This document shows, piece after piece, positions 3,444 through 37,141 of a DNA stretch of 64,000 nt. The notes under the pieces were generated by a model. The model did no database searches. It was not told the DNA's origin and was given only the letters and a program-made list of their open reading frames with translations. This DNA comes from Paraburkholderia edwinii. Lineage in GTDB: Bacteria > Pseudomonadota > Gammaproteobacteria > Burkholderiales > Burkholderiaceae. Location of the stretch: NCBI RefSeq assembly GCF_019428685.1, contig NZ_CP080096.1:1488001-1552000 (forward strand), read 5' to 3'. Each line of letters begins with the position of its first letter. Positions within the stretch are counted from its first letter, which is position 1. Both the position numbers and the translations under genes were made by a program.

Positions 3444-3650
3444 CCTGTTCGTACGACAAAAAGGTTAGACGAAGCGCGGCGGCGAAAATGCTGCGGCGCA
3501 TAACGACAGTTCAACAAACTTGATGCTTCAGCGCGCGAATTACTCGTTTGAGTTCATGCTTTCGCGAGCCTAATCTTTTCCTCAAGCACAGCGCATGAGC
3601 CTCACCAAAAGGCCTCACACAGACTGGTGCTGCGAATCAAGGAGGAAGAC

Positions 3651-4685
3651 ATGGAAGCGGTCCTCGTGCGGGAGGAGGCCCCCGTTCGTGCCAGTGACGA
3701 GCGGCACGCAAAGCTTGAAGTCCGTTTGAAGTCCATCACGGCGCTTGCCGACGATATCAACGCTTTCGAATTCGTGAGCGCAAATGGCGCGTTGCTGCCT
3801 GCGTTCACGGCCGGCTCGCATATCGACGTGTATCTCGCGGGCGGCGTCATCCGCCAGTATTCGCTCTGCAACTCGTCTCTGGAACGGCATCGTTACGTGG
3901 TCGCTGTGCTGCGCGACGAGCGGGGCCGCGGCGGCTCGGTTGCCATGCACGACACCCTGCGTGCGGGCCAGAAGCTGCAGATTTCTCAGCCACGCAATCA
4001 TTTCGCACTCTCGAGCGCTGCCGGCCTGCACGTGTTTATCGCCGGCGGGATCGGCATTACGCCGGTCATGGCAATGATCGACGAGGTGCGTAAACGTGGG
4101 CAGGCGTTTCATCTCTACTATTGCGCGCGCACGGCGCAACGCGCCGCGTTCCTTGACGAACTGAAGCCGCTGATCGAAAGCGGTCAAGCATCGCTTCATT
4201 TCGATAATGGCGACCCGCGTAACGGCCTCGACCTCGTATCGACACTGAGCGGTTATTCGTCCGGCACGCATCTCTACTATTGCGGTCCCGGCCCGCTGAT
4301 GGACGCGATCGAAGCGGCGAGCGCGCACTGGCCAGCGGCGACGCGCCATTGCGAGCGTTTTTCCGCGGGCGCCGCGGCGAACCCCACTCGAAGCAGCAAC
4401 ACCGATAGCGGCAGCGAAAAAGACGCGCCGTTCGACGTCGAACTGCGCCGCTCGCAGAAAACGCTGACCGTGCAGCCGGGCGAGTCGATTGTCGACGTGC
4501 TTCGATGCAATGGCGTCGACGTCGATACGTCGTGTTGCGAGGGGTATTGCGGCACCTGCATGACGCGCTATCTTGCCGGCGAGCCGATCCATCGCGACAC
4601 GGTGCTCGACGACGAAGACCGTGAGGAGTTCGTGATGATCTGCTGCGCGCGCGCGAAGAGCGCGACGCTCGTGCTCGACATCTGA
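3651..4685 (+). CDS. PDR/VanB-family oxidoreductase (Rieske oxygenase reductase)
   Basis: A 344-residue electron-transfer reductase passing electrons from NAD(P)H through flavin and a [2Fe-2S] cluster to a Rieske oxygenase. Domain order: ferredoxin-reductase flavin domain with RQYSL at 69-72, NAD-binding domain with GGIGITPVMAM at 132-142, and a C-terminal plant-type ferredoxin with Cys295, Cys300, Cys303 and a fourth Cys at 331/332. The start was chosen at 3651 because AAGGAGGAAGAC precedes it; an upstream in-frame start at 3627 lacks such a site. The partner oxygenase begins 90 bases downstream. Confidence 0.92.
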   Translation: MEAVLVREEAPVRASDERHAKLEVRLKSITALADDINAFEFVSANGALLPAFTAGSHIDVYLAGGVIRQYSLCNSSLERHRYVVAVLRDERGRGGSVAMHDTLRAGQKLQISQPRNHFALSSAAGLHVFIAGGIGITPVMAMIDEVRKRGQAFHLYYCARTAQRAAFLDELKPLIESGQASLHFDNGDPRNGLDLVSTLSGYSSGTHLYYCGPGPLMDAIEAASAHWPAATRHCERFSAGAAANPTRSSNTDSGSEKDAPFDVELRRSQKTLTVQPGESIVDVLRCNGVDVDTSCCEGYCGTCMTRYLAGEPIHRDTVLDDEDREEFVMICCARAKSATLVLDI

Positions 4686-4775
4686 TTGGCCGGGAAGACC
4701 ACATTTCAAGAAACAGGCCGGACCGCACTGTCCGGTTGCATCGATGTCCCCATTCTTCTGGAGAGGATGCTCGCC

Positions 4776-5894
4776 ATGAGTACATTCGAATACGTCAAAG
4801 ATTGCTGGTATCCGATCGGTTTTTCGTCGGAGTTTCCCGCGGGGCAACTGCAAGGCCACAAGATCGTCAACCGTCCGATCGTGATGTGGCGCTCGGCAGA
4901 AAGCGGCGAGGTCGTTGCATTCGATGACCGGTGCTGTCATAAGCGCTTTCCGCTGTCGCAAAGCAGGCTGCTCGACGACGGCCATCTCGAATGCGCCTAC
5001 CACGGCTTGTGCTACGACACGTCAGGCCGCTGCGTGGCGATTCCGTCCGCGCCGGACAAGCCGATTCCGCCTCAGGCACGCCTCAGTGTCGTGCCGGTCT
5101 GCGAGCAGGACGGCGTGGTATGGGTCTGGCCCGGCAGTCCCGCCGGCGCCCAGCGATTCGCGCCGCCGCGTACGTCCGAAGTAACCGACGCCGGCAACCT
5201 GTCGATCGGCTCGCCCGAGCCGCTGCGCGTGCCGGCGAACTACCTGTTGCTGATCGAGAACCTGCTCGACATCACGCACTTTTATCCGTTGCACGACGGC
5301 AATATCGGTGACAAGGAAAACAGCCGGATTCCGGTCGAACTGGAAGAAGGGGACAGCGAAGGACATACGTTCGTGCGCACCACGCGCCACGTGCACGGCT
5401 ACCGGCAGCCGCCGTATCTGAAGGAGTGGTTCCTGTATGACACGGTCGAACGGGTTCACACGCACTGCATGGTGACCCCGGGGCTGACGCGCGTCGTGAT
5501 GCGCGTCGCGCCCGAGGGCGAACTGGGCACGGACAAGGAACGCGGCTATACGCTGCTGCATCTGCATTTGCCCGTCGACGAGCGCAACCTGGTCTGGCGC
5601 TGGAACGTGTCGTGCAAGGAGTGGCATACGACGCTTAGCGATCCGAACATGCCGACCGCGCGCAAGGTTGCCGAGATGTTCCCGGCTGTCGTCGAGCAGG
5701 ATCAGTGGGCGCTCGAACGCCAGCAACGGATGATGGAATACCCGGACGACGGCTACTCGGAACTGTTCCTCAAAACCGATAAGGCCTTGCGTCGCGCGCG
5801 TCAGATTCTGATGGCGCTGCAGCGCAAGGAGCGCGAACTGCAGATTATGCCGGTTGGCGAGACGTCGGCGGCGAAGGTGTCGGAGCTGGCATAG
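4776..5894 (+). CDS. Rieske aromatic oxygenase / VanA-type O-demethylase alpha subunit
   Basis: A 372-residue terminal oxygenase. The N-terminal Rieske domain has Cys53-x-His55 and Cys73-x2-His76 ligating the [2Fe-2S] cluster. The C-terminal catalytic domain carries the mononuclear iron motif in ENLLDITHFYPLHDG. Length and layout match the vanillate demethylase/phthalate-dioxygenase class rather than three-component dioxygenases, and no beta subunit follows. The start at 4776 is preceded by GGAGAGG at about 9 bases; in-frame starts upstream are less likely. Together with the reductase it forms a two-component monooxygenase or demethylase. Vanillate is only one possible substrate. Confidence 0.9.
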   Translation: MSTFEYVKDCWYPIGFSSEFPAGQLQGHKIVNRPIVMWRSAESGEVVAFDDRCCHKRFPLSQSRLLDDGHLECAYHGLCYDTSGRCVAIPSAPDKPIPPQARLSVVPVCEQDGVVWVWPGSPAGAQRFAPPRTSEVTDAGNLSIGSPEPLRVPANYLLLIENLLDITHFYPLHDGNIGDKENSRIPVELEEGDSEGHTFVRTTRHVHGYRQPPYLKEWFLYDTVERVHTHCMVTPGLTRVVMRVAPEGELGTDKERGYTLLHLHLPVDERNLVWRWNVSCKEWHTTLSDPNMPTARKVAEMFPAVVEQDQWALERQQRMMEYPDDGYSELFLKTDKALRRARQILMALQRKERELQIMPVGETSAAKVSELA

Positions 5895-11925: not shown

Positions 11926-13553
11926 GACTTGCTCCCGCGTTGTGAGGCGTGGCGTTCGGCGAGCCATTCGGCGAAACGCGCGCTGCGGTACTGGCGCCCG
12001 CGCCGCGTCACGTCTTCGCGCAGATTCATGAGGCCCGGATGGAACAGGCGGACATCCATTTCCTTCGCGTCGGCGGCAACGGGCGGGCGGAAATCCATAT
12101 GCTGGAACACGTCGCGTTCGAGATCGATGCCCGGCGCGTACTCAGTGAGTTCGAGCCCCTGTTTGCCAATGCGAAACACGGCGCGCTCGGTGACGAACAG
12201 CACCTTCTGATTGCGTTCGCGTCCGCCTGCCGCGCTATAGCAGATCTGCTCGAGCGTATTGACGAACTTGCGATGCCGGCCTTCCTGACGAATCTGCGTC
12301 TTGCCGTTCTCCCAGCCGATATCGAGTCCGCCCGCCGTCAACGTGCCGCTGAACACGACGGTGCGCGCATTGCGGCTGATGTTGATAAAACCGCCTACGC
12401 CGATGATCTTGTCGCCGAAGCGGCTGATATTGACGTTGCCTTGCGCGTCGACTTCGGCGAACGAGAGAAACGCGAGATCGAGGCCGCCGCCGTCGTAGAA
12501 GTCGAATTGCGAAGGTTGTTCGATCATCGCGGCGAAATTTTGCGCGCCGCCCGAGTCGCGGCCTGTGATCGGCGCACCGCCGATCAAGCCCTGTTCGTTG
12601 GTGAGGATCGCATCGTCGAGCACGCCTTCTTCGGCGGCGACCGTGGAGAGGCCGGTCGAGATGCCGGCGCCGAGATTGCAGACCGCGTTCGGGTAGAGCT
12701 CCATCGCCGCGCGGCGCACGACCACCTTGCGCGGGCCGAACGGCAGCGGCTTGATCTCGTCGAGCGGCACGCGCAGTTCGCCCGAATAGCTCGGGTCGTA
12801 GGCGGTCGCATACGTCTGGCGCTGCTCCGGTTCGACCACGATGAAATCCACCAGAATGCCTGGAATTTTCACGTGCTTCGGCGGCAGCGTACCGCGCCGC
12901 GCGATCCGTTTGACCTGCACGATCACAAGACCGCCCTGGCGGCGGGTTGCCTGCGCCATGGCGAGCATTTCGCCGAATACCGCTTCCTGTTCCATCGTCA
13001 CGTTGCCGTCTTCGTCGGCAGTGGTGCCGCGCAGGAAGGCGACATCGATCGGAAACGGCTTGAAGCGCAGCCATTCCTCGCCGTCGAGTTCCATCACTTC
13101 GACAAGGTCTTCGTGCGTGCGCGGGCTTTGCTTTGCGCCTTGCTGGCGCGGGTCGACAAAGGTGCCGAGGCCCGTTTTCGTGATGAGGCCGGGGCGGCCC
13201 GCGGCCATGTCGCGCATCAGTTGCGACAGCACGCCTTGCGGCAGCGTGTAGGCCTCGATCTTGTCCTCGGCGGCGAGCGTGACGAGGCCCGGCGAATCGA
13301 CGAGCGCGCTCGTAATCGCGCGCTTGAGCAGGCCTTCGCGCGCGAGATGCGTGGCGCCGAGCGCCGCGCGGTCGCCGATGCCGACCACGCTGATCGACGT
13401 GAGGGCCGTGGGCTGCTGCTCCGTTTCAAAACGGCGGCCGACGGCGGCCAGCAGTTCCTCCGGTACCGAATGCCCGCCGCCCGAGCCGCTGATCAGCACC
13501 GAGTCTCCGGATTTCAGAAGCCTTGCGGCTTCGTCGCTTGTAATTCGTTCCAT
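11922..13553 (-). CDS. Fused acyl-CoA:carboxylate CoA-transferase (YdiF/Pct type)
   Basis: A 543-residue CoA-transferase with alpha and beta halves fused, as in propionate CoA-transferase and E. coli YdiF. It moves CoA from an acyl-CoA donor to a carboxylic acid to activate it for degradation. The glycine-rich ISGSGGGHSVPEELL lies at residues 21-35. The catalytic glutamate is Glu320 in TNEQGLIGGAPITG, and a second conserved block is FYDGGGLDLAFLSFAEVDAQGNVN. It is the first gene of the minus-strand operon and overlaps the next by 4 bases. A near-perfect LacI-type operator lies 38-55 bases upstream of its ATG. Confidence 0.9.
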   Translation of the reverse strand: MERITSDEAARLLKSGDSVLISGSGGGHSVPEELLAAVGRRFETEQQPTALTSISVVGIGDRAALGATHLAREGLLKRAITSALVDSPGLVTLAAEDKIEAYTLPQGVLSQLMRDMAAGRPGLITKTGLGTFVDPRQQGAKQSPRTHEDLVEVMELDGEEWLRFKPFPIDVAFLRGTTADEDGNVTMEQEAVFGEMLAMAQATRRQGGLVIVQVKRIARRGTLPPKHVKIPGILVDFIVVEPEQRQTYATAYDPSYSGELRVPLDEIKPLPFGPRKVVVRRAAMELYPNAVCNLGAGISTGLSTVAAEEGVLDDAILTNEQGLIGGAPITGRDSGGAQNFAAMIEQPSQFDFYDGGGLDLAFLSFAEVDAQGNVNISRFGDKIIGVGGFINISRNARTVVFSGTLTAGGLDIGWENGKTQIRQEGRHRKFVNTLEQICYSAAGGRERNQKVLFVTERAVFRIGKQGLELTEYAPGIDLERDVFQHMDFRPPVAADAKEMDVRLFHPGLMNLREDVTRRGRQYRSARFAEWLAERHASQRGSKS

Positions 13554-13590
13554 CGCTTTTTCCTGTCACTTTGGCTTAACAGATATCGCT

Positions 13591-13608
13591 AATGTAACCG
13601 GATACATT
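13591..13608. promoter_or_regulatory. LacI-type operator, site C
   Basis: AATGTAACCGGATACATT, an 18-base palindrome with one mismatched pair, centred at 13599/13600. It lies just upstream of the CoA-transferase start on the minus strand. Confidence 0.75.
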
Positions 13609-13692
13609 AGCAAGGGCAAGTCGTCGCGTTACATCGCTGCATGGCTTTGAGTAGCTTGCAAAGGGTGGCATTCCGTAGCCGTTTACGGATGG

Positions 13693-25903: not shown

Positions 25904-26974
25904 TCAGGCCGGAATGATCTTCTCCGCCTTCAACCGGTCGAACAACGCGAAGAACGCATCGGGCGTGCTCTGATAGTCGAGAAAACCCGCCTTACGGCTT
26001 TTGCTCATATCCGTCAGCACTTCCATCGGCCGGCCCAGATCGGCATCCGTGTGCCACCACGAAACCAGTGCATCGACATTGGGCTCTTTCAGCTGATGGC
26101 GCGCCGCGATCTCTTTCCACTGCTTGCCGGCGTCCTGCATGCGGCTTTCGAGCGGCCGCGTCTGACCATCGAACGGTGCCGGCTCGAGGCCAAAATATTC
26201 CGCAATGCGCGACCACATCCATTTCCAGCGGAACACATCGCCATTGACGACGTTGAAGTCTTCGTTGCGTGCGTTCGGCGACGTGGCCGCCCATTCGAGC
26301 TGCCGCGCGAGCAACCGCGCGTCGGTCATATCCGTGAGGCTTTCCCATTGCGCCTTGGAGCCGGGGAAGATGAACGGCTGGCCGGTCTGCTTGCACAGCG
26401 TTGCATAGACGGCGAGCGTGACGCCCATATTCATCGCATTGCCGAGCGCAAAGCCGATAATCGTATGCGGGCGATGCACGCTCCATCCGAAGTCATATTG
26501 CTTCGCTGCTTCGAATACGCGGTCTTCCTGCTCGTAGTAGAAGTTATCGACTGGCTGCCGGCCCTGTTCCTCGCGAAACGGCGTCATCGGCACATTGCCT
26601 TGCGCGTACGCTTCGAAAGGCCCGAGATAGTGCTTGAGCCCCGTGACGAGCGCCGCATGCTTGAGTTGCCCGGTCGGGCCGAGCGCATCGAGCACATGCT
26701 TGACCATCGCGCCGTTGACGCGAATATTCTCGCGCTCGGTGGCCTGCCGCGACCACGCGGTAAAGAACACATGACTGAACTGGCGGCCGCGCAATGCATT
26801 CGCGACCGATTCCGGCGCAGTGAGATCCGCGGTGACGGAGTCGATGCCGACTTGCAGTGGCGTGCGTCCGCGAGAAAGGCCCGTTACGTGCCAGCCGCCG
26901 CACGCGAGCAGATGCTGCGCGAGATTGCCGCCGACAATACCCGTCGCGCCAATAATGAGTGCCTGTTTTTCCAT
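25904..26974 (-). CDS. PRISE-type short-chain reductase (iridoid synthase/progesterone 5-beta-reductase-like)
   Basis: A 356-residue atypical short-chain dehydrogenase/reductase. The Rossmann motif is GATGIVGGNLA (9-19). The family's catalytic pair is present in its characteristic motifs: Lys114 in TGLKHYLGPF and Tyr146 in NFYYEQED, 32 residues apart. These enzymes reduce the C=C bond of enones using NADPH. It follows maleylacetate reductase by 58 bases on the same strand and may be the last gene of that operon. ATG 26974 was chosen because the protein begins there like its family; a TTG at 27001 is possible. Confidence 0.85.
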   Translation of the reverse strand: MEKQALIIGATGIVGGNLAQHLLACGGWHVTGLSRGRTPLQVGIDSVTADLTAPESVANALRGRQFSHVFFTAWSRQATERENIRVNGAMVKHVLDALGPTGQLKHAALVTGLKHYLGPFEAYAQGNVPMTPFREEQGRQPVDNFYYEQEDRVFEAAKQYDFGWSVHRPHTIIGFALGNAMNMGVTLAVYATLCKQTGQPFIFPGSKAQWESLTDMTDARLLARQLEWAATSPNARNEDFNVVNGDVFRWKWMWSRIAEYFGLEPAPFDGQTRPLESRMQDAGKQWKEIAARHQLKEPNVDALVSWWHTDADLGRPMEVLTDMSKSRKAGFLDYQSTPDAFFALFDRLKAEKIIPA

Positions 26975-27032
26975 GGAATAGAGAAATTCAAAAGTGCCCA
27001 ACTGCCTGGGGAGTGTTACGACTCTATAGCGG

Positions 27033-28112
27033 TTACATCGCTACGAAGGTCCGGCAATCCGAGCGGATGCCTTCGAGAGCGAACTGCAGCAAGCGGTGGA
27101 CCGCTTCGTACGACATCGGTCGCGGATTGTAATAGGGCGCGCGCATCGCGGCAGCGGCGGCCGCGTCGAGATCCGCCGCACGAAAACCGAGCTCGGCAAG
27201 CGAGGCCGGCGTGCCGAGCGCGCGTCCGAGGTCGTGCAATGCGCCGGCCGGATCATCGGTATCGAGCGCACTGCGCAGGCGCTGCATCGCGGCCGGCGCC
27301 GCGGGCAGGTTGAACGCCATCGAGTAGGGCAGGATCACCGCGTGCGTTTCGGCGTGCGGCAGATTGAACATGCCGCCGAGCGTATGGCACAGCTTGTGAT
27401 GCAAGGCCATGCCGACATTGCCGAGCACGGTTCCGCACAGCCACGCGCCGTATTGGGCGGCTTCGCGCGCTTCGACCTCGTCGGGCTGCGCGACCACGCG
27501 CGGCAACGCGCGCGCAAGGCTGCGTATGCCTTCTTCGGCGAACAGCGACATCACCGGGTTTGCGTCCTCCGCATATAAACCTTCGGCAGCATGCGCGATC
27601 GCATTCAGACCGCTCGTGGCGGAAAGCGCGGCCGGCAAGGTCAGCGTCAGGCAAGCGTCGTAAATCACCGTACGCGGCAGCACGCGATAGCTCTTGCCGG
27701 TCTTCTTTTCGCTGCCCGATGTCAAACCGTAGATCGGCGTCACCTCCGAGCCGGCGTAGGTCGTCGGAATCGCGACGATCGGCAGCGAGGTTTCAAGCGC
27801 GATTGCTTTCGCGAGGCCGAGCGTCGAGCCGCCGCCCGCTGCGACGAGTCCGTCCGCGTGCGCCGCGTGCGCGGCCGCGACGCCGGCCTGGGCGATCTCG
27901 ACCGGCACATGCATGACAGCCTGGTCAAAGATGTCCGCGCAACGCTCGCCCGCGAGCTTGCGTACGCGATCGGCGAGAAAGCGCTGCTCCGGCGTGCACA
28001 GGACGAGCGCGCGGCGGATGCCCAGTTCGTCGAGCTCGGCTGCGAGCTGGTCGATCGAGCCCGTGCCGAAAACGATGCGGCCGGGACGGCTGGTATACGT
28101 GAATGAGATCAT
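27033..28112 (-). CDS. Maleylacetate reductase (iron-type alcohol dehydrogenase family)
   Basis: A 359-residue NAD(P)H-dependent enzyme reducing maleylacetate to 3-oxoadipate, the second lower step of hydroxyquinol degradation. The opening PGRIVFGTGSIDQLAAELDELGIRRALVLCTPEQ, the nucleotide loop GGGSTLGLAKAIAL and IPTTYAGSEVTPIYGLT are typical of the family, as is HHKLCHTLGGMFNLPHAETHAVILPY. The ATG at 28112 overlaps the stop of the dioxygenase gene (ATGA), showing translational coupling. Longer in-frame upstream starts would run deep into that gene and are rejected. Confidence 0.93.
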   Translation of the reverse strand: MISFTYTSRPGRIVFGTGSIDQLAAELDELGIRRALVLCTPEQRFLADRVRKLAGERCADIFDQAVMHVPVEIAQAGVAAAHAAHADGLVAAGGGSTLGLAKAIALETSLPIVAIPTTYAGSEVTPIYGLTSGSEKKTGKSYRVLPRTVIYDACLTLTLPAALSATSGLNAIAHAAEGLYAEDANPVMSLFAEEGIRSLARALPRVVAQPDEVEAREAAQYGAWLCGTVLGNVGMALHHKLCHTLGGMFNLPHAETHAVILPYSMAFNLPAAPAAMQRLRSALDTDDPAGALHDLGRALGTPASLAELGFRAADLDAAAAAAMRAPYYNPRPMSYEAVHRLLQFALEGIRSDCRTFVAM

Positions 28113-28972
28113 GATGACCGGTTCAAGACGAAATCGAACTCGAGTGTGCTGAAGGGCGTGGCCATTACGGTGCCGTCGGGCGCGGTGCCGCTCGCATGAT
28201 GGTGCCACGGCGCGATCAGCGATGAGCGCACGCCGAACACGGCATCCGAGTCGAGGTAGCGGTCGCCTTCGCGAAACACATGGGTGACGAGCCGCTCGTA
28301 GCCGGGCGCCGTAATCATGAAATGCAGATGCGCGGGGCGCCACGGGTGACGTCCGAGCGCGTCGAGCATGCGTCCGACCGGACCGTCATGCGGAATCGGA
28401 TACGGCTCGGCGACGATCGAACGGAAATGATAGCGCCCATCCGGCAGGCTGTGCAGCACGCCGCGCGCGCGATGGTTTTCTACATCGCTGTACTGCACGT
28501 CATAGAAGCCGGCCGCGTCGGCCTGCCAGACTTCGATGCGCGCGCCGGCCACCGGTTCGCCGCGAGACCCGCGCACGACGCCCGATACGAAACACGGCTC
28601 GCCTTGCGCGCCGTTGGCGACGTCGCCGCCGTTGTCGTAGGCGGGTGCGTCATCGACGAAGAACGGACCGAACACCGTCGCTTCGGTGCAGCCCTCGGGC
28701 TTGCGATGCGCCATCGCGGTCACGAGCATCGAGAGGCCGAGCGTGTCCGACAGCAGAATGAATTCCTGGCGGCGCGCATCGGTCATGTGGCCGACTTCGG
28801 TCAGAAAGCGGATGCCGGCTTCCCATTCCGCTTCGGTCAGGTTCACTTCGCGTGCAAAGGCATGCAGGTGCCGCACGAGGCTCGTGACAATGTCCTTGAG
28901 GCGCGCATCGGTCGCGTTGGCATGACGCGCGAGCACGGCATCGGTGATCGTGTTCTCGTCGAGATTTCGCAT
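28109..28972 (-). CDS. Hydroxyquinol 1,2-dioxygenase (intradiol ring cleavage)
   Basis: A 287-residue non-haem Fe(III) enzyme that opens hydroxyquinol (1,2,4-trihydroxybenzene) to maleylacetate. The four iron ligands can be placed: Tyr157 (AAGFYDVQ), Tyr191 (AEPYPIP), His215 and His217 (RPAHLHF). The N-terminal helical dimerisation segment (about 20-100, ending PEGCTEATVFGPFF) is typical of the catechol/hydroxyquinol group. Pairing with maleylacetate reductase rather than muconate cycloisomerase identifies it as the hydroxyquinol type. No aromatic hydroxylase gene accompanies it. Confidence 0.92.
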   Translation of the reverse strand: MRNLDENTITDAVLARHANATDARLKDIVTSLVRHLHAFAREVNLTEAEWEAGIRFLTEVGHMTDARRQEFILLSDTLGLSMLVTAMAHRKPEGCTEATVFGPFFVDDAPAYDNGGDVANGAQGEPCFVSGVVRGSRGEPVAGARIEVWQADAAGFYDVQYSDVENHRARGVLHSLPDGRYHFRSIVAEPYPIPHDGPVGRMLDALGRHPWRPAHLHFMITAPGYERLVTHVFREGDRYLDSDAVFGVRSSLIAPWHHHASGTAPDGTVMATPFSTLEFDFVLNRSS

Positions 28973-28992
28973 GAGTCGAATCCGTTTGTGTT

Positions 28993-29277
28993 TTACCGGT
29001 TATCGACGCGCTTGAGAAACGGCCGGATATCGACCGTGCGCCAGATGCCTGCCTTGTTGAACGGGTCGTTGCTGTTAAAGCGCATCACGTCGCCGATATC
29101 GTCGGCTTCGTACAGAAAGAAGCTGCCGATCATGGTTTTTTCGTCGCCTGCCAGCAGCGGCCCCGACATCACCATTTTGACGGGCGACGTCGCAAGATAT
29201 GCCTTGTGGTCTTCGTAATGTTCAAGCCTGCGCTCGACCATGTTGTCGTGATCGAGGCAATAGACGGTGTAGTGCAT
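28993..29277 (-). CDS. YciI-like small protein
   Basis: A 94-residue ferredoxin-like-fold protein (HYTVYCLDHDNMVERRLEHYEDHKAYLA; GSFFLYEADDIGDVMRFNSNDPFNKAGIW). It keeps the family His and Asp pairs. YciI proteins occur in aromatic and chloroaromatic pathways as small isomerase- or hydrolase-like helpers, mostly untested. It sits between the beta-hydroxyacid dehydrogenase and the dioxygenase with gaps of 27 and 20 bases. A dehydration or tautomerisation step before ring cleavage would be a fitting, unproven role. Confidence 0.8.
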   Translation of the reverse strand: MHYTVYCLDHDNMVERRLEHYEDHKAYLATSPVKMVMSGPLLAGDEKTMIGSFFLYEADDIGDVMRFNSNDPFNKAGIWRTVDIRPFLKRVDNR

Positions 29278-29304
29278 TTACGGCTCCAGAAGGTGAGGAA
29301 AGAA

Positions 29305-30225
29305 TCAGCGCGAGATGCCGGCTTGCGCTTCGATCGCGCGGACGATCGAAAAGAAGTCGAGCTGCGCGCCGTCGCCGCGCGCGTAGCTGGCGAACTGATC
29401 GCGCACAAGCGTGGCCGCGGCCATCGGCACGCCGGCTTCGTCGCCCGCGGCGACGACGAGCGACATGTCCTTCAGCATTTGTATGGACGAGAACGCCGGT
29501 GCGAAGTTGCGCTGTTTGAGCGGCTCGAGCTTGTATTTGACGAGCGGCGATGCGGCTACGCTATCACCGATCACGTTGAGCATGTCGGACCAGTCGAGCC
29601 CGCCTTTCGTGCCGAGCGTCAACGCTTCGGCGAGCAGCACCGCGGTGGAGCCGACCAGATGATTGATCGCGAGCTTCAGATAGCGTGCCTGCTGATCGCC
29701 GCCGACGTAGTACTGGCGTGCCGAAATCGCCTGAAACACGGGCAGGACCTGTGCGTAGGCGCTATCGGGTCCCGATGCGAAGACGGTCAATTGCGCTTTT
29801 TCAGCGAGCACGGTGCTGCCCGACACCGGCGCGCAGATGTAGCCGATGCCACGCTTGCGCGCTGCGTCGCGCACTTCGCCGGAAGCGGTCGGCGACACGG
29901 TGCTCATATCGACCAACACCATGCCGTTGCCGGCGTTGTCGATCACGCCGTTTTCGCCCAACGCGATGTTGCGCAGCACGCTGTCGTCGGGAATGATCGA
30001 CAAGACGAAGGGCGCCGCGCGGGCCAGGCCGCCGATATCGTCGGCACGATGCGCGCCGTGTTGCACGGCTTCGTCCACGCGCTGCGGATCGACGTCGTAG
30101 ACGGTGACATCGAAGCCCGCGCCGAGCAGATTGCGCACGATCGGCGTGCCCATCTTGCCGAGGCCGATCCAGCCGATCTTGCGGGCGTCGGCCCCATTCT
30201 GTTCCTGCGATTGAGATTGCGCCAT
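29305..30225 (-). CDS. NAD(P)-dependent beta-hydroxyacid dehydrogenase (3-hydroxyisobutyrate dehydrogenase family)
   Basis: A 306-residue enzyme. The Rossmann loop is WIGLGKMGTPIVRNLL near residue 19. Other landmarks are the substrate-binding PVSGSTVLAEKAQLTV and the catalytic Lys in LKLAINHLVGSTAVLLAEAL. The family oxidises or reduces 3-hydroxyacids, tartronate semialdehyde and similar compounds. The nature of the hydroxyacid in this pathway is unknown. It is only 4 bases from the zinc dehydrogenase upstream, so they are surely cotranscribed. Confidence 0.88.
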   Translation of the reverse strand: MAQSQSQEQNGADARKIGWIGLGKMGTPIVRNLLGAGFDVTVYDVDPQRVDEAVQHGAHRADDIGGLARAAPFVLSIIPDDSVLRNIALGENGVIDNAGNGMVLVDMSTVSPTASGEVRDAARKRGIGYICAPVSGSTVLAEKAQLTVFASGPDSAYAQVLPVFQAISARQYYVGGDQQARYLKLAINHLVGSTAVLLAEALTLGTKGGLDWSDMLNVIGDSVAASPLVKYKLEPLKQRNFAPAFSSIQMLKDMSLVVAAGDEAGVPMAAATLVRDQFASYARGDGAQLDFFSIVRAIEAQAGISR

Positions 30226-30229
30226 AGCG

Positions 30230-31300
30230 TCACCGTGTCTGGGGATTGATCAGAATCTTCATCTTGTCGCTGCCTTTGTCGCTCAGCACGTCGAAGCCTT
30301 TTTCGACGACGTCGTCGGCGTCGATCAGATCGTGAATCAGCTTTTCGACCGGAAACTTGCCGTTCGCGATCATGCCGATGATGCGCGGCCAGATCGTGAC
30401 CGGGTAGCACCAGGTGCCTTCGATGCGGATGTCCTTGAGCGACCACTTCATCGGATCGACCTGCGCGTTGCCGACATGCAGGCCTGCTTGCACGACGGCG
30501 CCCGCCGAGCGCACCGTATCGACGCACGCGTTGAGCGCATGCTGGTTGCCCGCGCATTCGATGGCCACGTCGACACCCACACCCTCGGTCAAATCGCGGA
30601 TCTTTTGCGCCAGTTCTCCGTCGGACGGATCGAAAATTTCGGTCGCGACGCCGAAGCCCGCCATCTTCGCGGCGCGCGCCGCATTCGGTTCGCTGACGAA
30701 GATTTTCGTCGCGCCGGCCGCGTGGCAGGCAAGTGCGGCCAGCACGCCGATCGGCCCCGCACCGGTGATCAGCACCGTCGAACCCGCAGTGACGCCGCCG
30801 CGGTCCACTGCGTACAGCGCGACGGCGGCCGGTTCGATCAGCGCGCCTTGCTTGTCGCTGACGGTGTCGGGCAGGCGGTTCGCGTGATAGTCGTTGATCA
30901 CCGTGTATTCGGCCATCCCGCCGCCGTCCCAGCTCAAACCGACGCAGCCCATCTTCGTGCACAGATGGCGCATGCCGCGCGCGCAGTAGTAGCACTGGCC
31001 GCAGGAGGCGAGCGGCATGACCGAGATCCGGTCGCCGCGCTGCACGTTCTTCACATCCTTGCCCACCTCGACCACTTCGGCGCTGAATTCGTGGCCGAGC
31101 ACTTGCGGTGCTTTCGCGCCCGTCAGCGCGTGCGGCTCGGTCGGCACCACGATGGGCCCGGCCTGGTATTCGTGCAGATCGGTGCCGCAGATGCCGCACC
31201 ATAGCGGCTTGACGATCATCTGGTTCGCGCCCATTCCGTCCGGGTCCGGTACGTTCTCGACGCGGATATCGTGTGCACAGTGAAAACGCACTGCTCTCAT
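30230..31300 (-). CDS. Zinc-dependent polyol/alcohol dehydrogenase (MDR family)
   Basis: A 356-residue medium-chain dehydrogenase. The catalytic zinc site includes Cys38 (CGICGTDLHEY) and the GHEF His-Glu. The structural zinc is bound by four cysteines (CGQCYYCARGMRHLC). The nucleotide loop is GAGPIGVLAAL, followed by an acidic FVSEPN that favours NAD+. Closest types are 2,3-butanediol, sorbitol and threonine dehydrogenases. Coupled to a sugar-type importer, it is the likely first oxidation of the imported polyol or cyclitol. The start at 31300 follows GAGGAGCAAAGAG. Confidence 0.9.
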   Translation of the reverse strand: MRAVRFHCAHDIRVENVPDPDGMGANQMIVKPLWCGICGTDLHEYQAGPIVVPTEPHALTGAKAPQVLGHEFSAEVVEVGKDVKNVQRGDRISVMPLASCGQCYYCARGMRHLCTKMGCVGLSWDGGGMAEYTVINDYHANRLPDTVSDKQGALIEPAAVALYAVDRGGVTAGSTVLITGAGPIGVLAALACHAAGATKIFVSEPNAARAAKMAGFGVATEIFDPSDGELAQKIRDLTEGVGVDVAIECAGNQHALNACVDTVRSAGAVVQAGLHVGNAQVDPMKWSLKDIRIEGTWCYPVTIWPRIIGMIANGKFPVEKLIHDLIDADDVVEKGFDVLSDKGSDKMKILINPQTR

Positions 31301-31359
31301 CTCTTTGCTCCTCTGATTTGGCGGGCCATTGCGCATGGCCTCATGTCACCTGAAGTTTT

Positions 31360-32331
31360 TTAGCGTCGCCGGCGGCTCACGTAACACGCCGATGCGCCGA
31401 TGATGATTGCGCCTTTCACGATGATTTGCGCCTGCACCGGCATGCCGATCAGCAACACGATGTTGAATACGACGACAAGAATGGCTGCGCCCGCGAGGCC
31501 GCCCCATAGCGAACCGCGACCACCCGTGAGCGCGAGTCCGCCCATCACGGCCGCCACGATCGAATCGAGTTCGAAGCCGCGCCCGACCCAGTTGTCGACG
31601 ATGCCCACGTAACCGGACAGAATCAGCCCCGCGAGCCCGGCCAGCAGCGCGCTGATCACGTAGCACGCAATCCGTATGACGTCGGGACTCACACCGACCA
31701 GCTTTGCCGCAACCGCGTTGCCGCCCACCATGTAGACGCGCCGGCCGAACGTCGACAGATGCAGCAGCGTGCCGAACACGAGCGCGCATAGCGCGAGCAG
31801 CAGTACATTCACGGGAATGCCGGCGACGGCGCCCGTTCCCATCGCATGAAACAGCGGTGGCACGTTGCCCGAAGGCGCGCCCTGCGTGTAGGCAAAGCGC
31901 AGGCCGTCGAGCACGACGGCCGTGGCGAACGTTGCGAGAAACGGCGAGACCTGACGCTTCGTGACGAGCAAGCCATTGAGCAGGCCTGCGGCAGCGCATA
32001 GCACCAGCGTCGTGCCGAAGATTTCGGGTGCGGAATGGTTCGTGCCGTCGAACGCGGTCGCAATCACCGCCGCGGTCGCCATGACCGACGCGACTGAGAG
32101 ATCGAGGCCGCCCACGAGAATCACAAAGATCTGCCCGATCACGACAATGCCGAGCGGTGCAAACTGCACGAGCATATTGAGCACATTGTCGGTATGCAGA
32201 AACGTCGGCGACCATGCACCGGAAAGCGCGATCAGCAGCACGAGGAAGATATAGATGCCGTAACGCCGCGCGACATCGAGAGAAAGCATGCGCGCAGGGG
32301 CACTGTCACGACGAGGAGCAACCGAATTCAT
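31360..32331 (-). CDS. Sugar ABC transporter permease 2 (RbsC type)
   Basis: A 323-residue inner-membrane permease with 8-10 hydrophobic segments. The RbsC/BPD_transp_2 signatures GGLDLSVASVMATAAVIATAF and SIVAAVMGGLALTGGRGSLWGGLAGA are present. Its ATG overlaps the stop of the preceding permease (ATGA). Two different permeases in tandem indicate a heterodimeric channel, unlike RbsC homodimers. Confidence 0.92.
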   Translation of the reverse strand: MNSVAPRRDSAPARMLSLDVARRYGIYIFLVLLIALSGAWSPTFLHTDNVLNMLVQFAPLGIVVIGQIFVILVGGLDLSVASVMATAAVIATAFDGTNHSAPEIFGTTLVLCAAAGLLNGLLVTKRQVSPFLATFATAVVLDGLRFAYTQGAPSGNVPPLFHAMGTGAVAGIPVNVLLLALCALVFGTLLHLSTFGRRVYMVGGNAVAAKLVGVSPDVIRIACYVISALLAGLAGLILSGYVGIVDNWVGRGFELDSIVAAVMGGLALTGGRGSLWGGLAGAAILVVVFNIVLLIGMPVQAQIIVKGAIIIGASACYVSRRRR

Positions 32332-33302
32332 GCGATCCCCCGTTTCTGCTGAACGTTGATGCACACGGCGGCGATAATCGCGACGCCTTGCACGATAAGC
32401 TGATACTGCGAAGGCACACCGGCGAAGTTGATCAGGTTGTTGAGCATGCTGAGCAGATACACGCCGAGCAGCGTGCCGATCACGCCGCCGCGTCCGCCGC
32501 TCAGGATCGTGCCGCCCACGACAACCGGCGTGATCGATGCGAGCGTGTAGTTAAAGCCGAGATACGGCTGACCCGAGCCGAACTGGGCAGCGAGATAGAT
32601 GCCGGTCAGGCCCGCGCACAGCGAGGAAAACGTGTAGACGAACACGATCACGCGTTTGCGAGGAATGCCCGATAGCGTCGCGGCGTGCTCGTCGTCGCCG
32701 ACGAGGTATACGTAGCGGCCGAGGCGCGCATTGCGCATGAAGTACGACACGGCGAGATAAAGCAGCAGCACGATCGTTGCGGTGACCGGCACGTTTGCGT
32801 ATCGGCCGTATGCGAGCGCGTCGAAACCGTCGGGCACGCTGCCCGCGGGGCCATTCGCGTAGTACAGGATGCCGCCCTGCAGCACCGCGCCCATGCCGAG
32901 CGTGACGATCAGCGGATGCACACGCAGCCACAGCACGAGCAGGCCGTTCAGCAGGCCGACCGCGAGCGAGACGGCGAGCGCAGCCGCGATGGCGATTTGC
33001 CATCCGCCTTGCGTGCTTTCGGAAAGACCGGACGTGAGCGTTGCCGTCACGCTGATCAGCGATCCGACCGACAGATCGATGCCTCCCGTCAGCACGGCGA
33101 GCGTCTGGCCCAGCGCAACCAGCGCGAGCCCGGTCGACTGCTGATGGATGTTGAGCACGTTGGAGAGCGTCGAAAAGCGGTCGTTGACGGTTGCGCCCGC
33201 AACGAACAACGCGAGGATCAGGGCGAGCACGATATAGCCTGCGCCGTTCGGCGCGACATGACGCCTGAAAAAGCCGGATCGGTTTTCAGTGAGCGAGTGC
33301 AT
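32328..33302 (-). CDS. Sugar ABC transporter permease 1 (RbsC type)
   Basis: A 324-residue permease with signatures GGIDLSVGSLISVTATLTSGL and ITPVVVGGTILSGGRGGVIGTLLG. The ATG at 33302 is preferred over an in-frame GTG two codons earlier because GGGAGG lies 5 bases before the ATG. The gene overlaps the end of the ATPase gene by 17 bases, consistent with a tightly coupled transporter operon. Confidence 0.92.
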   Translation of the reverse strand: MHSLTENRSGFFRRHVAPNGAGYIVLALILALFVAGATVNDRFSTLSNVLNIHQQSTGLALVALGQTLAVLTGGIDLSVGSLISVTATLTSGLSESTQGGWQIAIAAALAVSLAVGLLNGLLVLWLRVHPLIVTLGMGAVLQGGILYYANGPAGSVPDGFDALAYGRYANVPVTATIVLLLYLAVSYFMRNARLGRYVYLVGDDEHAATLSGIPRKRVIVFVYTFSSLCAGLTGIYLAAQFGSGQPYLGFNYTLASITPVVVGGTILSGGRGGVIGTLLGVYLLSMLNNLINFAGVPSQYQLIVQGVAIIAAVCINVQQKRGIA

Positions 33303-34863
33303 GCGCACCTCCCATGTGTGCGGAACGCGAGCCGGTGGCGAGCGCCATGATGTCTTGCTCGGTCATCTGTTCGCCGCTGACTTCTCCGGCGATCCGGCCT
33401 TCGCGCATCACGAGCACGCGGTCGGACATGCCGAGCACTTCCTGCAGTTCCGAGCTGATCATCAGGATGCCGAGGCCGCGGCCCGTCAACTCGCGCATCA
33501 GGCGATAGATTTCCGCCTTCGCGCCGATATCGACGCCGCGTGTCGGTTCATCGAGAATCAGCACGCTGGTGCACACGCGAACCCAGCGGCTGATCAGCAC
33601 CTTCTGCTGATTGCCGCCCGACAGCGTGGCGACGCTGCCCGTGGGCGTCGCGCCCGCGATGCCGTATTCGCGAATCGAGGCCGCGCCGGCCGCGCGCTCG
33701 GCTTTCGCGCGCAGCAGTCCGCCGCGGGAAAAGCGTGGCAGCGTCGAGGCGGTGACGTTCTGCGCGACATTCAGGTACATCAGCAGGCCCTCGGATTTGC
33801 GATCTTCGGTGACGAAGCCGAGGCCGAGCCGGATGGCGGTGGCGGGCGTCATGCGCGTGTGACGCGCGCCGTGTACTTCGACGGTGCCGCGTGCGGGCAG
33901 CGCACCGAAAATGCCCGAGGCCAGTTCGGTGCGCCCTGAGCCCACCATGCCCGCCAGACCGACGATTTCGCCCGCGCGCACCGATAGCGACGCGTCGAAT
34001 ACGCGGTTGCCGACATGCAGGCCTTCGACCTTCATCAGTACCTTGCGGCCTGCATCGGCACGCGTTTTCGGCGGATAAATGTCCTTCATTTCGCGGCCCA
34101 CCATCATCCGCACGAGCTCGTCGTGCGAGGTGCGCGCGACCTCCTGCGTGCCGATCTTGCAGCCGTCTTTCATGACCGTCACGCGATCGCAGAGCTCGAA
34201 TATTTCGTCGAGGCGATGCGAGATATAGACGATTGCCACACCGCGCTCGCGCAGCAAACGCAAGCGCCGGAACAGCAACTGCACTTCCTTGCCCGCGATC
34301 ACGGCGGTCGGCTCGTCGAGGATCAGCACGCGCACGTCACTTGCCATCGCCTTCGCGATTTCGACCATCTGCTGGCTCGCCACCGAAAGCGCGCCGACCC
34401 GTTCGCGCGGATCGAGCGCGACGCCGAGTTCGAGCAGCAGCGCCGCCGCGCGCTCGTTCATCGCGCGATGGTCGATCGTGCCGAGGCGCGTGCGCGGCTC
34501 GATGCCCGCGAAGATGTTCTGCGCGACGCTCGATTGCGGAAACAGCACGAGTTCCTGATAGATGATGTGAATGCCGCGTGCTTTCGCTTCGGCCGGCGAC
34601 TTCCATGCGACCGGATGGCCGTCGAAGCGCAGGTCGCCTTCGTCTGCCGTGTAGGCGCCGACCAGCACTTTCATCAGCGTCGATTTGCCTGCGCCGTTTT
34701 CGCCGACGAGCGCATGGATCTCACCGCCGCGCACGCCGAAGCTCACCGCGTCGAGGCTTTTGACGCCGGGAAACTGCTTCGTAATGCCGATGGCCTCGAT
34801 CGCGTCGGGCTTTGTCGATGCGTTATCCGCCGCGTCAGCCGGCGTGGAGTCGGGCCCGTTCAT
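33286..34863 (-). CDS. Sugar ABC transporter ATP-binding protein (RbsA/MglA type, two NBDs)
   Basis: A 525-residue tandem ATPase. NBD1 (about 25-250) has Walker A GENGAGKSTLMK, the signature region LSVASQQMVEIAKAM and Walker B VLILDEPTAV. NBD2 (about 275-510) has a degenerate Walker A (GLAGMVGSGRTEL), signature LSGGNQQKVLISRWV and LILDEPTRGVDIGAK. This is the normal asymmetry of ribose, galactose and inositol ATPases. Its ATG overlaps the stop of the binding-protein gene (ATGA). Confidence 0.95.
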   Translation of the reverse strand: MNGPDSTPADAADNASTKPDAIEAIGITKQFPGVKSLDAVSFGVRGGEIHALVGENGAGKSTLMKVLVGAYTADEGDLRFDGHPVAWKSPAEAKARGIHIIYQELVLFPQSSVAQNIFAGIEPRTRLGTIDHRAMNERAAALLLELGVALDPRERVGALSVASQQMVEIAKAMASDVRVLILDEPTAVIAGKEVQLLFRRLRLLRERGVAIVYISHRLDEIFELCDRVTVMKDGCKIGTQEVARTSHDELVRMMVGREMKDIYPPKTRADAGRKVLMKVEGLHVGNRVFDASLSVRAGEIVGLAGMVGSGRTELASGIFGALPARGTVEVHGARHTRMTPATAIRLGLGFVTEDRKSEGLLMYLNVAQNVTASTLPRFSRGGLLRAKAERAAGAASIREYGIAGATPTGSVATLSGGNQQKVLISRWVRVCTSVLILDEPTRGVDIGAKAEIYRLMRELTGRGLGILMISSELQEVLGMSDRVLVMREGRIAGEVSGEQMTEQDIMALATGSRSAHMGGAHALAH

Positions 34864-36014
34864 TTCTCACCCGGCAGCTTGACCTTGAACGTCGTCGGGT
34901 TGTAGCCCGGTCCCATGCCGCTGTCGATGATTTCGTCGGGTGGTCCTTTGGCATCCACGACCTGATCGATGTACTGGTCCGGATGCGGTACCGACGCGGT
35001 TTCGTCGCCACGCGTCAGCGCGATTTGCGGGCTGATTTCATAGATCTTCGGCAGTGGCTGGCCTTGCAAGACCTTGAGCGCGACGTCGAGCGACGTGCCG
35101 CCCATCGAAGGCGGATAGCCGATTTCAAGCATCGGAATCTTGTACTTCAGCGCGAGTTGCAGCGGACCGTTGAGATCGGCTGTCGTATGCGGCGGAATTT
35201 CGCCAGGCTTGAAGCCGGCCGCGACGAATGCGTCGATCGAGCCCGCGACGGGCAGGCCGTGTGCGCACCAGACGGCGTTGATGCTGTGGCCATACTTCGC
35301 GATCATCGCCTGCATCTGCTGTCTCGCCTTCACCGGGCTCCAGTCGGAGTAGACCGTATCGAGCACCTTGATGCCCGGATACTGCGAAAACACCTGATGC
35401 GCGGCCGCTTCGCGATCGGCGCTGACGCTCGAACCGGCCTGGCCCGCGAGCATGATCACGTTGCCTTTGCCATGCAGCTTCTCGACAATCCACTGCGCCC
35501 ACAGCCGGCCCATCATCGCGTCCGAACCCGTGACGAACGACACGAAGTTATCGGAGGAAATGCGCCGGTCGACCATCACCACGGGAATACCCTGCTTCAT
35601 TGCACGCGTGACGACCGGATCGAGCGCTTTCTGCGTATTCGCGCTGACGATCAGAAGATCGACGCCGCGCGAGATCAGGTCCTGAATGTCGGCGGCCTGC
35701 TTCGCGTCGTCCATGTTGCCGTTCGTGATCAGCAACTGCTTGATGAGGTCGGAGTGTTCCGAGGCGGCTTTCATCAGCGATTGCTGCATCACGACACGCC
35801 AGCTGTCGCCGAGGCCCGCATTCGAAAAGCCGATTACATAAGGCGGCTTTTTCTTGAACTTGGCGGTGTCGGAGAACGGAATCTGCACCGTCGGGTTGAA
35901 GAGAAACGTGCGGGGCGCGCCGGTGTAATCCGCGCGCGCGGCCAATGGAGCCGCCAGAGTGAAAGCCGCGGCGGCGAGTACGATCGCACGCTGAAAACGG
36001 GTCGAACGACGCAT
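34860..36014 (-). CDS. Periplasmic sugar/cyclitol-binding protein of the ABC importer
   Basis: A 384-residue binding protein: signal peptide (1-29, ending AARAD), then a type-I periplasmic fold of the RbsB class (PPYVIGFSNAGLGDSWRVVMQQSLMKAA; DLISRGVDLLIVSANTQKALDPVV; GIPVVMVDRR; NVIMLAGQAGSSVSADREAA). It is longer than RbsB, with an N-terminal extension of about 30 residues and a C-terminal tail. The ligand cannot be read from sequence. It is the first gene of a ten-gene operon. GGAG precedes the ATG at 36014. The divergent XRE gene is 206 bases away. Confidence 0.92.
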   Translation of the reverse strand: MRRSTRFQRAIVLAAAAFTLAAPLAARADYTGAPRTFLFNPTVQIPFSDTAKFKKKPPYVIGFSNAGLGDSWRVVMQQSLMKAASEHSDLIKQLLITNGNMDDAKQAADIQDLISRGVDLLIVSANTQKALDPVVTRAMKQGIPVVMVDRRISSDNFVSFVTGSDAMMGRLWAQWIVEKLHGKGNVIMLAGQAGSSVSADREAAAHQVFSQYPGIKVLDTVYSDWSPVKARQQMQAMIAKYGHSINAVWCAHGLPVAGSIDAFVAAGFKPGEIPPHTTADLNGPLQLALKYKIPMLEIGYPPSMGGTSLDVALKVLQGQPLPKIYEISPQIALTRGDETASVPHPDQYIDQVVDAKGPPDEIIDSGMGPGYNPTTFKVKLPGEK

Positions 36015-36177
36015 GAATGTCTCCGTGAATGTTTTGGTATGCGTCGGGAGATTCAACCGCTTGCCGCGGTCGTGTGTGCCGATAACGCGATCTATAATCT
36101 GGCGCTACCTGTACGCGACATCAGCATCCCGACGGCGCAAATGTGGCATGGTTGACGGGGTGCATCTAGCAATTGGT

Positions 36178-36189
36178 ATTACTAGTAAT
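36178..36189. promoter_or_regulatory. 12-bp perfect palindrome upstream of the XRE regulator
   Basis: ATTACTAGTAAT lies 32 bases before the regulator's start in the divergent region with the ABC operon. It is a candidate autoregulatory operator. A TATAAT at 36093-36098 lies further upstream on the plus strand without a clear -35. Confidence 0.5.
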
Positions 36190-36220
36190 GGCAGTAACAG
36201 GGAACGCGAGGAGACGGGAC

Positions 36221-37141
36221 ATGGAGAAGCAGCAGCGCCTGAATGAACTGGCCGATTTCCTGAAGACGCGCCGCGCGCGCCTTCGGCCTGAAGACGTCGA
36301 TTTTCCTTGCGGCAGCCGGCGCAAAACGCCGGGGCTGCGTCGCGAGGAAGTCGCGGAGCGTGCGGGAATCAGCGTGACCTGGTATGCGTGGCTTGAACAG
36401 GGCCGGGAAGTGAATGTCTCGTTCAAGACAATCGAAAGCCTGGCGAACGCACTGAAGCTATCGCCGCATGAGAGAACACATCTGTTCGAACTGGCCAATC
36501 ACTACACGCCGCCGGGGCCATACCCGATCGCGCAGAACGTGACCGATACCGTGCGCCGCATGCTCGACCAGCTCGGCAACATGCCCGCGTACGTGGTTGA
36601 CGGCAACTGGAACTATGTGACGTGGAACGAGGCGGCGGTCAGGGTGTTCACCGATTTCCGCAAGTTGCCGGCGGGGCGTTGCAATCTGCTGTGGTTCACG
36701 TTTCAGCAGGACGGCGCGCGTGTGTTGTTCCGCGGCTGGGATGCCTACGCGAAGTGCGTGCTTGCGCAGTTTCGCGGAGATTACATCCTGAGGCCATCCG
36801 GCGAGGTGTTTCTGCGCGATCTCGTCGAAGAACTGAACGATACCGATGCCGATTTTTGCCGCTGGTGGGCCGAGCACGAAGTGCTCAAGCGCAGCGACTG
36901 GCGCAAGGTCATCGAGCACCCCGTTGCGGGTTTACTCGAACTCGATGCGTTGTCGCTCGAAGTGCCCGACGCGCCGGGCATGCGCATCATGGTCTATACG
37001 CCGGCGCCGTCAACCGACACCGCGCAGCGTATCGATGCGTTGATGAAGAGCACGAAAACCGTGAATGGGCCGTTTGAGGCGGCAACGGTGCTCGACACGT
37101 TTCGCAAGGCGCGAGCGTCGGGCAGCGGGTTCGTAGGGTGA
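36221..37141 (+). CDS. XRE-family regulator with MmyB-like ligand-binding domain
   Basis: A 306-residue protein. The N-terminal helix-turn-helix is LRREEVAERAGISVTWYAWLEQGREVNVSFKTIESLANALKLS. From about residue 100 there is a PAS-like MmyB domain (PAYVVDGNWNYVTWNEAAVRVF; NLLWFTF; HPVAGLLELDALSLEVPDAPGMRIMVYTP). In related proteins this domain binds fatty-acyl-type ligands. GGAGACGGGAC precedes the ATG at 36221. Being divergent from the ABC-hydroxyquinol operon it is a candidate regulator of it, though this family more often controls adjacent dehydrogenase genes. Confidence 0.88.
   Translation: MEKQQRLNELADFLKTRRARLRPEDVDFPCGSRRKTPGLRREEVAERAGISVTWYAWLEQGREVNVSFKTIESLANALKLSPHERTHLFELANHYTPPGPYPIAQNVTDTVRRMLDQLGNMPAYVVDGNWNYVTWNEAAVRVFTDFRKLPAGRCNLLWFTFQQDGARVLFRGWDAYAKCVLAQFRGDYILRPSGEVFLRDLVEELNDTDADFCRWWAEHEVLKRSDWRKVIEHPVAGLLELDALSLEVPDAPGMRIMVYTPAPSTDTAQRIDALMKSTKTVNGPFEAATVLDTFRKARASGSGFVG

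Follow-up and report, generated by a model that had tools for sequence, protein, structure and literature searches.

A conserved operon joins a sugar-type ABC importer to hydroxyquinol cleavage: a possible route from cyclitols into the β-ketoadipate pathway

A 64,000-nucleotide stretch of the Paraburkholderia edwinii contig NZ_CP080096.1 (the window) carries, at positions 25904-36014, ten genes in one row on the minus strand, in which a CUT2-type ATP-binding cassette (ABC) importer and two dehydrogenases stand together with hydroxyquinol 1,2-dioxygenase (HQD) and maleylacetate reductase (MAR). The same genes recur in two bacterial classes. We propose that an alicyclic polyol is imported by this system, oxidised, dehydrated to hydroxyquinol (1,2,4-trihydroxybenzene) and sent through the β-ketoadipate pathway, and we put the chance of this a little below even. 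An earlier, sequence-only reading of this DNA had interpreted the row as a sugar-like import route into the β-ketoadipate pathway, and as a whole that interpretation is partly supported: importer, polyol-type dehydrogenases and hydroxyquinol cleavage form one conserved unit, and the ligand and the aromatisation step are predictions.

The operon and its ring-cleavage end

The genes of the row and the regulator divergent from it are as follows.

34860..36014, minus strand: CUT2-type periplasmic substrate-binding protein (SBP), 384 amino acids; Peripla_BP_4, E 5.8e-54
33286..34863, minus strand: CUT2 double ATPase; two ABC_tran stretches; matches to xylose, arabinose and ribose ATPase models at E 1e-159 to 1e-153, below their cut-offs
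32328..33308, minus strand: CUT2 permease 1; BPD_transp_2, E 5.2e-39; GTG start as called, the true start may be internal
31360..32364, minus strand: CUT2 permease 2; BPD_transp_2, E 3.3e-28; GTG start as called, the true start may be internal
30230..31336, minus strand: zinc polyol-type dehydrogenase (ZnADH), zinc alcohol dehydrogenase family; GHE and CxxCxxCx7C motifs
29305..30225, minus strand: β-hydroxyacid dehydrogenase of the HIBADH/GarR family; NAD_binding_2 and NAD_binding_11; GxGxMG, PVSG and KxxxN motifs
28993..29277, minus strand: YciI protein, 94 amino acids, candidate dehydratase/aromatase; YCII, E 2.7e-13
28109..28972, minus strand: HQD; Dioxygenase_N and Dioxygenase_C; PDB 1tmx, E 1.3e-96
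27033..28112, minus strand: MAR, iron-containing alcohol dehydrogenase family; PDB matches 3jzd, 3w5s and 3hl0
25904..27001, minus strand: PRISE-type short-chain dehydrogenase/reductase (SDR), candidate enone/quinone reductase; PRISE, E 4.3e-22
36173..37141, plus strand: divergent helix-turn-helix regulator with an MmyB-like ligand-binding domain; MLTR_LBD, E 2.4e-46

With starts as called, the gaps between consecutive operon genes are -4, -23, -37, 23, 4, 27, 20, -4 and 31 bases; these values depend on the called starts, and those of both permeases and of PRISE are uncertain (the PRISE gene was called with a TTG start, but translation more likely begins inside the frame, at the ATG of residue 10). 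The sequence-only description of a ten-gene minus-strand row with overlaps or short gaps was thereby confirmed, the gaps spanning -37 to +31 bases and the families being as claimed; its count of ten included 28993-29277, but the YciI gene there had not been named. Also confirmed was the absence of a hydroxylase: family and model matches found no flavin monooxygenase or other ring hydroxylase among the ten genes, nor a glycosidase, esterase or demethylase. The regulator likely governs the operon, judging by its place.

The ring-cleavage end is the firmest part of the assignment. The nearest solved enzyme to the window HQD, which carries both Pfam dioxygenase domains, is the hydroxyquinol 1,2-dioxygenase 1tmx (326.6 bits), and no catechol or chlorocatechol enzyme exceeded 137 bits in the PDB search. 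MAR matched best 3jzd (432 bits), deposited as an iron-containing alcohol dehydrogenase, followed by the maleylacetate reductases 3w5s and 3hl0 with 363.5 and 351.9 bits. Family membership thus gives strong support to the prediction that HQD opens hydroxyquinol to maleylacetate and MAR reduces this to β-ketoadipate. PcaF-, PcaI- and PcaJ-type genes were found in the Acidisoma loci described below, and the P. edwinii genome (8.3 Mb, two contigs) has one 3-oxoadipyl-CoA thiolase (PcaF) over the cut-off; because of these genes, β-ketoadipate is the likely destination of the predicted pathway. PcaF also exceeds its cut-off beside the locus in L052 and L047, as do the PcaI-type gene of L052 and the PcaJ-type gene of L053.

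A second HQD of the P. edwinii genome (locus L055 on contig C1) is 82% identical to that of the window, and none of the three hydroxylase types considered below occurs within its 17 kb. At L055:5031-9317 it adjoins a PuuE-like protein of the polysaccharide deacetylase type, and further along stand a weakly BMP-like SBP with a twin-arginine translocation signal and permease-looking genes. Elsewhere in the window, at 3627-5894, ferredoxin-reductase-like and Rieske-oxygenase-like genes adjoin each other and look by eye like a putative VanB/VanA-type demethylase pair.

Conservation of the gene set

A search of named genomes with the SBP gave 22 loci, and the stretches around each were examined. 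HQD lies within the examined stretch in 19 of them, the exceptions being L044, L050 and L054, the last an outlier whose SBP is 30% identical; PRISE is present in 17. P. humisilvae and P. rhizosphaerae have SBPs 96-97% identical to that of the window. Thirteen loci (L033-L045) from Paraburkholderia, Caballeronia, Pararobbsia and Burkholderia sp. all contain the SBP, the ABC genes, ZnADH, the HIBADH-family gene, YciI, PRISE and, in the same place, the regulator; HQD and MAR are kept in 12 of the 13, Pararobbsia alpina (L044) being the exception.

Six loci from Acetobacteraceae, among them Acidisoma and Lichenicoccus, have an SBP that is 59-69% identical and are built on two divergent strands: one carries MAR, HQD and the HIBADH-family gene, the opposite one the SBP, the ABC genes and an SDR. 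In five of the six the importer genes are followed by YciI and ZnADH, the contig of L046 ending first, and PRISE was seen in two. These loci carry additional SDRs, and the one GFO/IDH gene tested, from L048, stayed below the cut-off of the IolG model (E 1.3e-33). Yet another arrangement occurs in L047, from a β-proteobacterial metagenome-assembled genome (MAG). Since the same genes recur, differently arranged, in two classes, chance assembly of the gene set is untenable on this comparison. The trait is sporadic, because within the genus sample the SBP occurs in only 8 of 77 genomes, P. edwinii included; in a phylum sample it was matched at 1e-70 in 2 of 398 genomes, again with P. edwinii. As a separate observation, L048:5080-6852 and L046:7086-8777 encode proteins of 560-590 amino acids with an SBP_bac_1 domain, that of L048 also showing a weak, below-cut-off MarR-like N-terminus; they are candidate regulators of the cytoplasm that would sense sugars and carry a fused binding-protein domain.

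The distribution also bears on an alternative in which the two halves of the operon are linked by regulation only: the importer half would degrade a sugar-like compound, and HQD, MAR, YciI and PRISE would degrade or detoxify hydroxyquinol and its quinone from the same plant or fungal material. In agreement with this, HQD and MAR stand near each other but apart from the ABC operon in the genomes of L044 and the MAG L050, locus L080 has HQD and PRISE together without ABC genes, and the 20 kb around a related importer (L259, SBP relative 46% identical) contain no HQD. The presence of HQD and MAR elsewhere in the genomes of L044 and L050 equally suits the route proposed here. Against regulation as the only link, the halves are mixed in the Acetobacteraceae, where the HIBADH-family gene is on the strand of HQD and MAR and the importer is followed by YciI and ZnADH, and a single unit persists in both classes. 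We consider this explanation quite unlikely.

Predicted steps before ring cleavage

In the route that we propose, the importer, whose family is clear, would bring in a cyclitol, which might be inositol, a deoxy-inositol such as quercitol, or an aminocyclitol. ZnADH would oxidise a ring hydroxyl to a ring ketone, the HIBADH-family enzyme and/or the PRISE reductase would adjust the oxidation level, and YciI would catalyse one or more ketone-assisted eliminations ending in aromatisation to hydroxyquinol, which is the weakest step; HQD and MAR would follow. The formulae balance for quercitol with one oxidation and two dehydrations (C6H12O5 - 2H - 2H2O = C6H6O3) and for inositol with one oxidation and one reduction (C6H12O6 - 3H2O = C6H6O3). 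The deoxy-cyclitol favoured by the sequence-only reading is one of the compatible alicyclic polyols, beside an inositol or an aminocyclitol; a deoxy substrate is not required, since an ordinary inositol that loses three waters arrives at C6H6O3 as well. The precedent offered for it, dehydration of 2-deoxy-scyllo-inosose to 1,2,4-trihydroxybenzene, could not be confirmed: in the passages of PMC6170601 consulted, the only product given for this compound is catechol, formed with hydrogen iodide.

The CUT2 importer set is complete, and solved relatives of its SBP include fructose, arabinose, galactofuranose and ribose binders. In an alignment of eight rows D149, R150 and R201 are invariant, as is H252-G253, which in four printed alignments (two of one protein) lines up with an N-D pair of sugar SBPs. 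This motif of the second lobe, which we take to have a role in ligand binding, is absent from the window SBP. Because D149-R150 and R201 are kept while H252-G253 replaces N-D, the SBP is by sequence of sugar type with an altered site. A fold search with its AlphaFold model (mean pLDDT 56, from eight rows) only repeated the sequence result, with TMq 0.29-0.37 among the 50 matches listed. The 46% SBP relative lies in a row (L259:963-10696, genome G152) with ABC genes including two permeases, a GMC oxidoreductase, an aldehyde dehydrogenase and an SMP-30/gluconolactonase-like gene, a context that suggests a polyol or sugar as ligand. In the same genome a strong YciI adjoins a MAR-like gene on a different contig from the SBP relative.

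Among the dehydrogenases, ZnADH has as its best NCBIfam match the scyllo-inosose 3-dehydrogenase IolM (212 bits) and as its best PDB match the (R,R)-butanediol dehydrogenase 6ie0; by sequence it is of polyol type and at most a putative inositol-type enzyme. The HIBADH-family enzyme retains the three motifs listed above, which have functional roles in this family. PRISE matches at 1e-60 occur in 24 of 398 genomes, P. edwinii included, and PRISE was rejected as a marker of the pathway after 20 of the 23 other PRISE loci had been examined, among which only L080 has HQD nearby.

To our knowledge, the function of the YciI family is largely unknown. The best PDB match of the window YciI is TftG, the 5-chloro-2-hydroxyhydroquinone dehydrochlorinase (E 1.8e-11), which removes HCl from 5-chlorohydroxyquinol through ketonisation and elimination. 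All six TftG residues that we take to be catalytic (D9, R17, H24, S56, D75 and P76) are matched in the window YciI, and their equivalents are invariant in six aligned YciI sequences from the loci described above. By analogy, loss of water from a β-hydroxyketone on the way to hydroxyquinol would be the same kind of chemistry.

Hydroxylases, related loci and known systems

To compare the window with other hydroxyquinol loci, 69 HQD loci were surveyed for a CUT2 ATPase and for hydroxylases of the FAD_binding_3, HpaB and GraA-like types, with one to two reference proteins per type, so that other types would be missed. A CUT2 ATPase occurs in 15 of the loci, with a hydroxylase in none of these versus 18 of the 54 others (Fisher p 0.007). 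The set is neither random nor independent: it includes the window as query and 21 hand-picked loci (L216-L236), and of the 15 CUT2-bearing loci seven belong to a single family, f81, and nearly repeat one another. YciI alone led to L140, whose HQD reads in two frames, while L139 and L141-L145 were found through YciI and are also in the HQD search list; of the 54 matches on that list six were not taken in, and L080 was left out.

The survey bears on whether the operon serves an ordinary resorcinol- or hydroquinone-type route with its hydroxylase elsewhere in the genome. Such an arrangement would agree with the finding that, by the references used, no hydroxylase lies near HQD in 36 of the 54 loci that have no CUT2 importer. 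The P. edwinii genome does contain one FAD_binding_3 relative of a hydroxyquinol-locus hydroxylase (34%) as well as four GraA-like proteins whose identity is at most 29%, and it may contain a hydroxylase of another kind. No HpaB-type match was found there at 1e-10, however; no HQD lies in the 18 kb around the FAD_binding_3 relative, the 18 surveyed loci with a hydroxylase are all without a CUT2 ATPase, and resorcinol is hardly a compound for which one would expect an SBP of sugar type. In our estimate the route is very unlikely. The sequence-only reading had named a co-regulated resorcinol-type hydroxylase elsewhere in the genome as evidence that would speak against it; for these three types no near homologue was found, and none of them occurs in the 18 kb around the window HQD. 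Its use of the missing hydroxylase as a pointer holds in that the operon has none, but because the same is true of those 36 loci, the absence is weaker evidence than had been held.

Other HQD loci with CUT2 genes resemble the window in part. In L227 the order HQD-Dabb-MAR-YciI (YciI 71% identical to that of the window) adjoins a ZnADH (48%) and CUT2 genes, and at 12646-13638 lies an inositol 2-dehydrogenase (IolG) over its curated cut-off, 386 versus 355 bits. L222, L223 and L215 combine HQD and CUT2 genes with GFO/IDH dehydrogenases and a TIM-barrel protein. The one such protein tested, that of L223, has as its only NCBIfam match the 3-dehydroshikimate dehydratase QuiC (E 3.6e-18, 65 bits versus a cut-off of 1200), and its solved relatives are Lmo2234 (the best), 5hmq (listed as a 4-hydroxyphenylpyruvate dioxygenase, which we take to be of QuiC type), IolI and three others with weaker matches. 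At the threshold used, just three of the 69 loci, L215, L222 and L223, have a dehydroshikimate-dehydratase-like enzyme, and there is none around the window HQD. Both L223:1134-16643 and L222 contain HQD, Dabb, a flavin mononucleotide reductase, an amidohydrolase, the TIM barrel, GFO/IDH, PhyH and CUT2 genes, with YciI in L223 only at the threshold used. Family f81 (L139:9937-19981 and L140-L145), from another class, has MAR, an AtzA-type amidohydrolase, a HIBADH-family gene, HQD, a GlcD-like FAD oxidase, CUT2 genes and YciI in one row without any of the three hydroxylase types, and we regard this row as a sister pathway. These arrangements would be compatible with alicyclic chemistry before hydroxyquinol and are no proof of it.

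The related loci can also be read in another way, in which the ring is already aromatic at import: the substrate would be a hydroxyquinol- or methoxyhydroquinone-type phenolic whose side chain is a sugar or a polyol, with the sugar part seen by the importer and the side chain processed by the dehydrogenases. This accounts for the missing hydroxylase and the sugar-type SBP, suits a β-hydroxyacid and an alcohol dehydrogenase, and fits the GlcD-like oxidase and AtzA-type amidohydrolase of related loci. It is at odds with the lack of a glycosidase, esterase or demethylase in the operon and with the GFO/IDH dehydrogenases of L223- and L227-type loci, including the IolG of L227, and we consider it unlikely.

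Several observations, besides the missing hydroxylases of the 36 loci mentioned above, weigh against import and aromatisation of a cyclitol. HIBADH-family enzymes usually act on a carboxylate, which a plain cyclitol lacks; a carboxyl group on the ring or on a side chain would suit it better, which leaves some weight to a substrate that is already aromatic at import and bears a side chain. ZnADH misses the IolM cut-off of 450 bits, and PRISE is widespread, without a nearby HQD in 19 of the 20 loci collected by PRISE itself. The operon has no dedicated cyclitol dehydratase of the IolE or dehydroshikimate-dehydratase type, so aromatisation would fall to YciI. In the printed alignment the generic relative HI0828 also shows all six TftG residues, so their retention is not reaction-specific and supports catalysis by YciI rather than a given reaction. 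The L259 SBP relative reads S-A in place of H252-G253, so its ligand may differ, and its genome G152, with that SBP relative and a strong YciI, has no HQD at 1e-60. Nor do the other HQD loci that have CUT2 genes carry orthologous importers, their SBPs, where found, being 25-28% identical to that of the window. Finally, on the 45 loci of the HQD search, without the window and L055, the mutual exclusion of CUT2 and hydroxylase has p 0.086, or 0.30 after the f81 copies are collapsed, and the associations with YciI and with HIBADH each go from p 6.7e-5 to 0.19. Because significance is lost on collapsing near copies, the case rests on conservation across lineages and not on association tests.

With these reservations, import and aromatisation of a cyclitol could extend to a so far undescribed class of catabolic loci that turn imported cyclitols into hydroxyquinol by oxidation and serial dehydration, with a YciI-family dehydratase/aromatase and no oxygenase before ring cleavage, the variants with IolG, dehydroshikimate-dehydratase-like, GlcD-like and amidohydrolase genes handling different cyclitols. 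We hold this generalisation to be possible, though doubtful. Among the publications listed, a literature search covering titles and abstract openings found none on this locus or on a cyclitol-to-hydroxyquinol route, and the only sugar-like nutrients we know to be aromatised for degradation are quinate and shikimate. If the proposal is true, the cell makes a sugar-like nutrient aromatic so as to degrade it, a YciI protein gains a function and an orphan CUT2 importer a substrate class, and there is an oxygenase-free enzymatic way from cyclitols to 1,2,4-trihydroxybenzene. The locus is conserved in soil bacteria such as Paraburkholderia graminis (strain C4D1M, L038), which makes the proposal directly testable.

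Four known systems share features with the window operon. In the Gra-type resorcinol/γ-resorcylate pathway HQD and MAR also act, and the surveyed look-alikes L177, L191 and L219 have decarboxylase- and GraA-like genes and no CUT2 ATPase, whereas the window operon has neither decarboxylase nor hydroxylase. Inositol catabolism of the Thermotoga type with IolM shares an IolM-like zinc dehydrogenase and a sugar or cyclitol importer; in the window the IolM cut-off is not reached, and the pathway would end in an aromatic ring and a dioxygenase instead of ring hydrolysis. In the tft pathway of 2,4,5-T degradation the YciI-family dehydrochlorinase TftG, hydroxyquinol dioxygenase and maleylacetate reductase act together on hydroxyquinol-type rings, but the window operon lacks a monooxygenase and has a sugar importer and polyol dehydrogenases. 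The nearest scheme in logic would be quinate/shikimate catabolism, in which oxidation and dehydration turn an alicyclic polyol into an aromatic (protocatechuate, by 3-dehydroshikimate dehydratase) that is then sent through β-ketoadipate; the window operon, which is predicted to cleave hydroxyquinol and has no dehydroshikimate dehydratase, would be a hydroxyquinol variant of this scheme fed by a CUT2 ABC importer.

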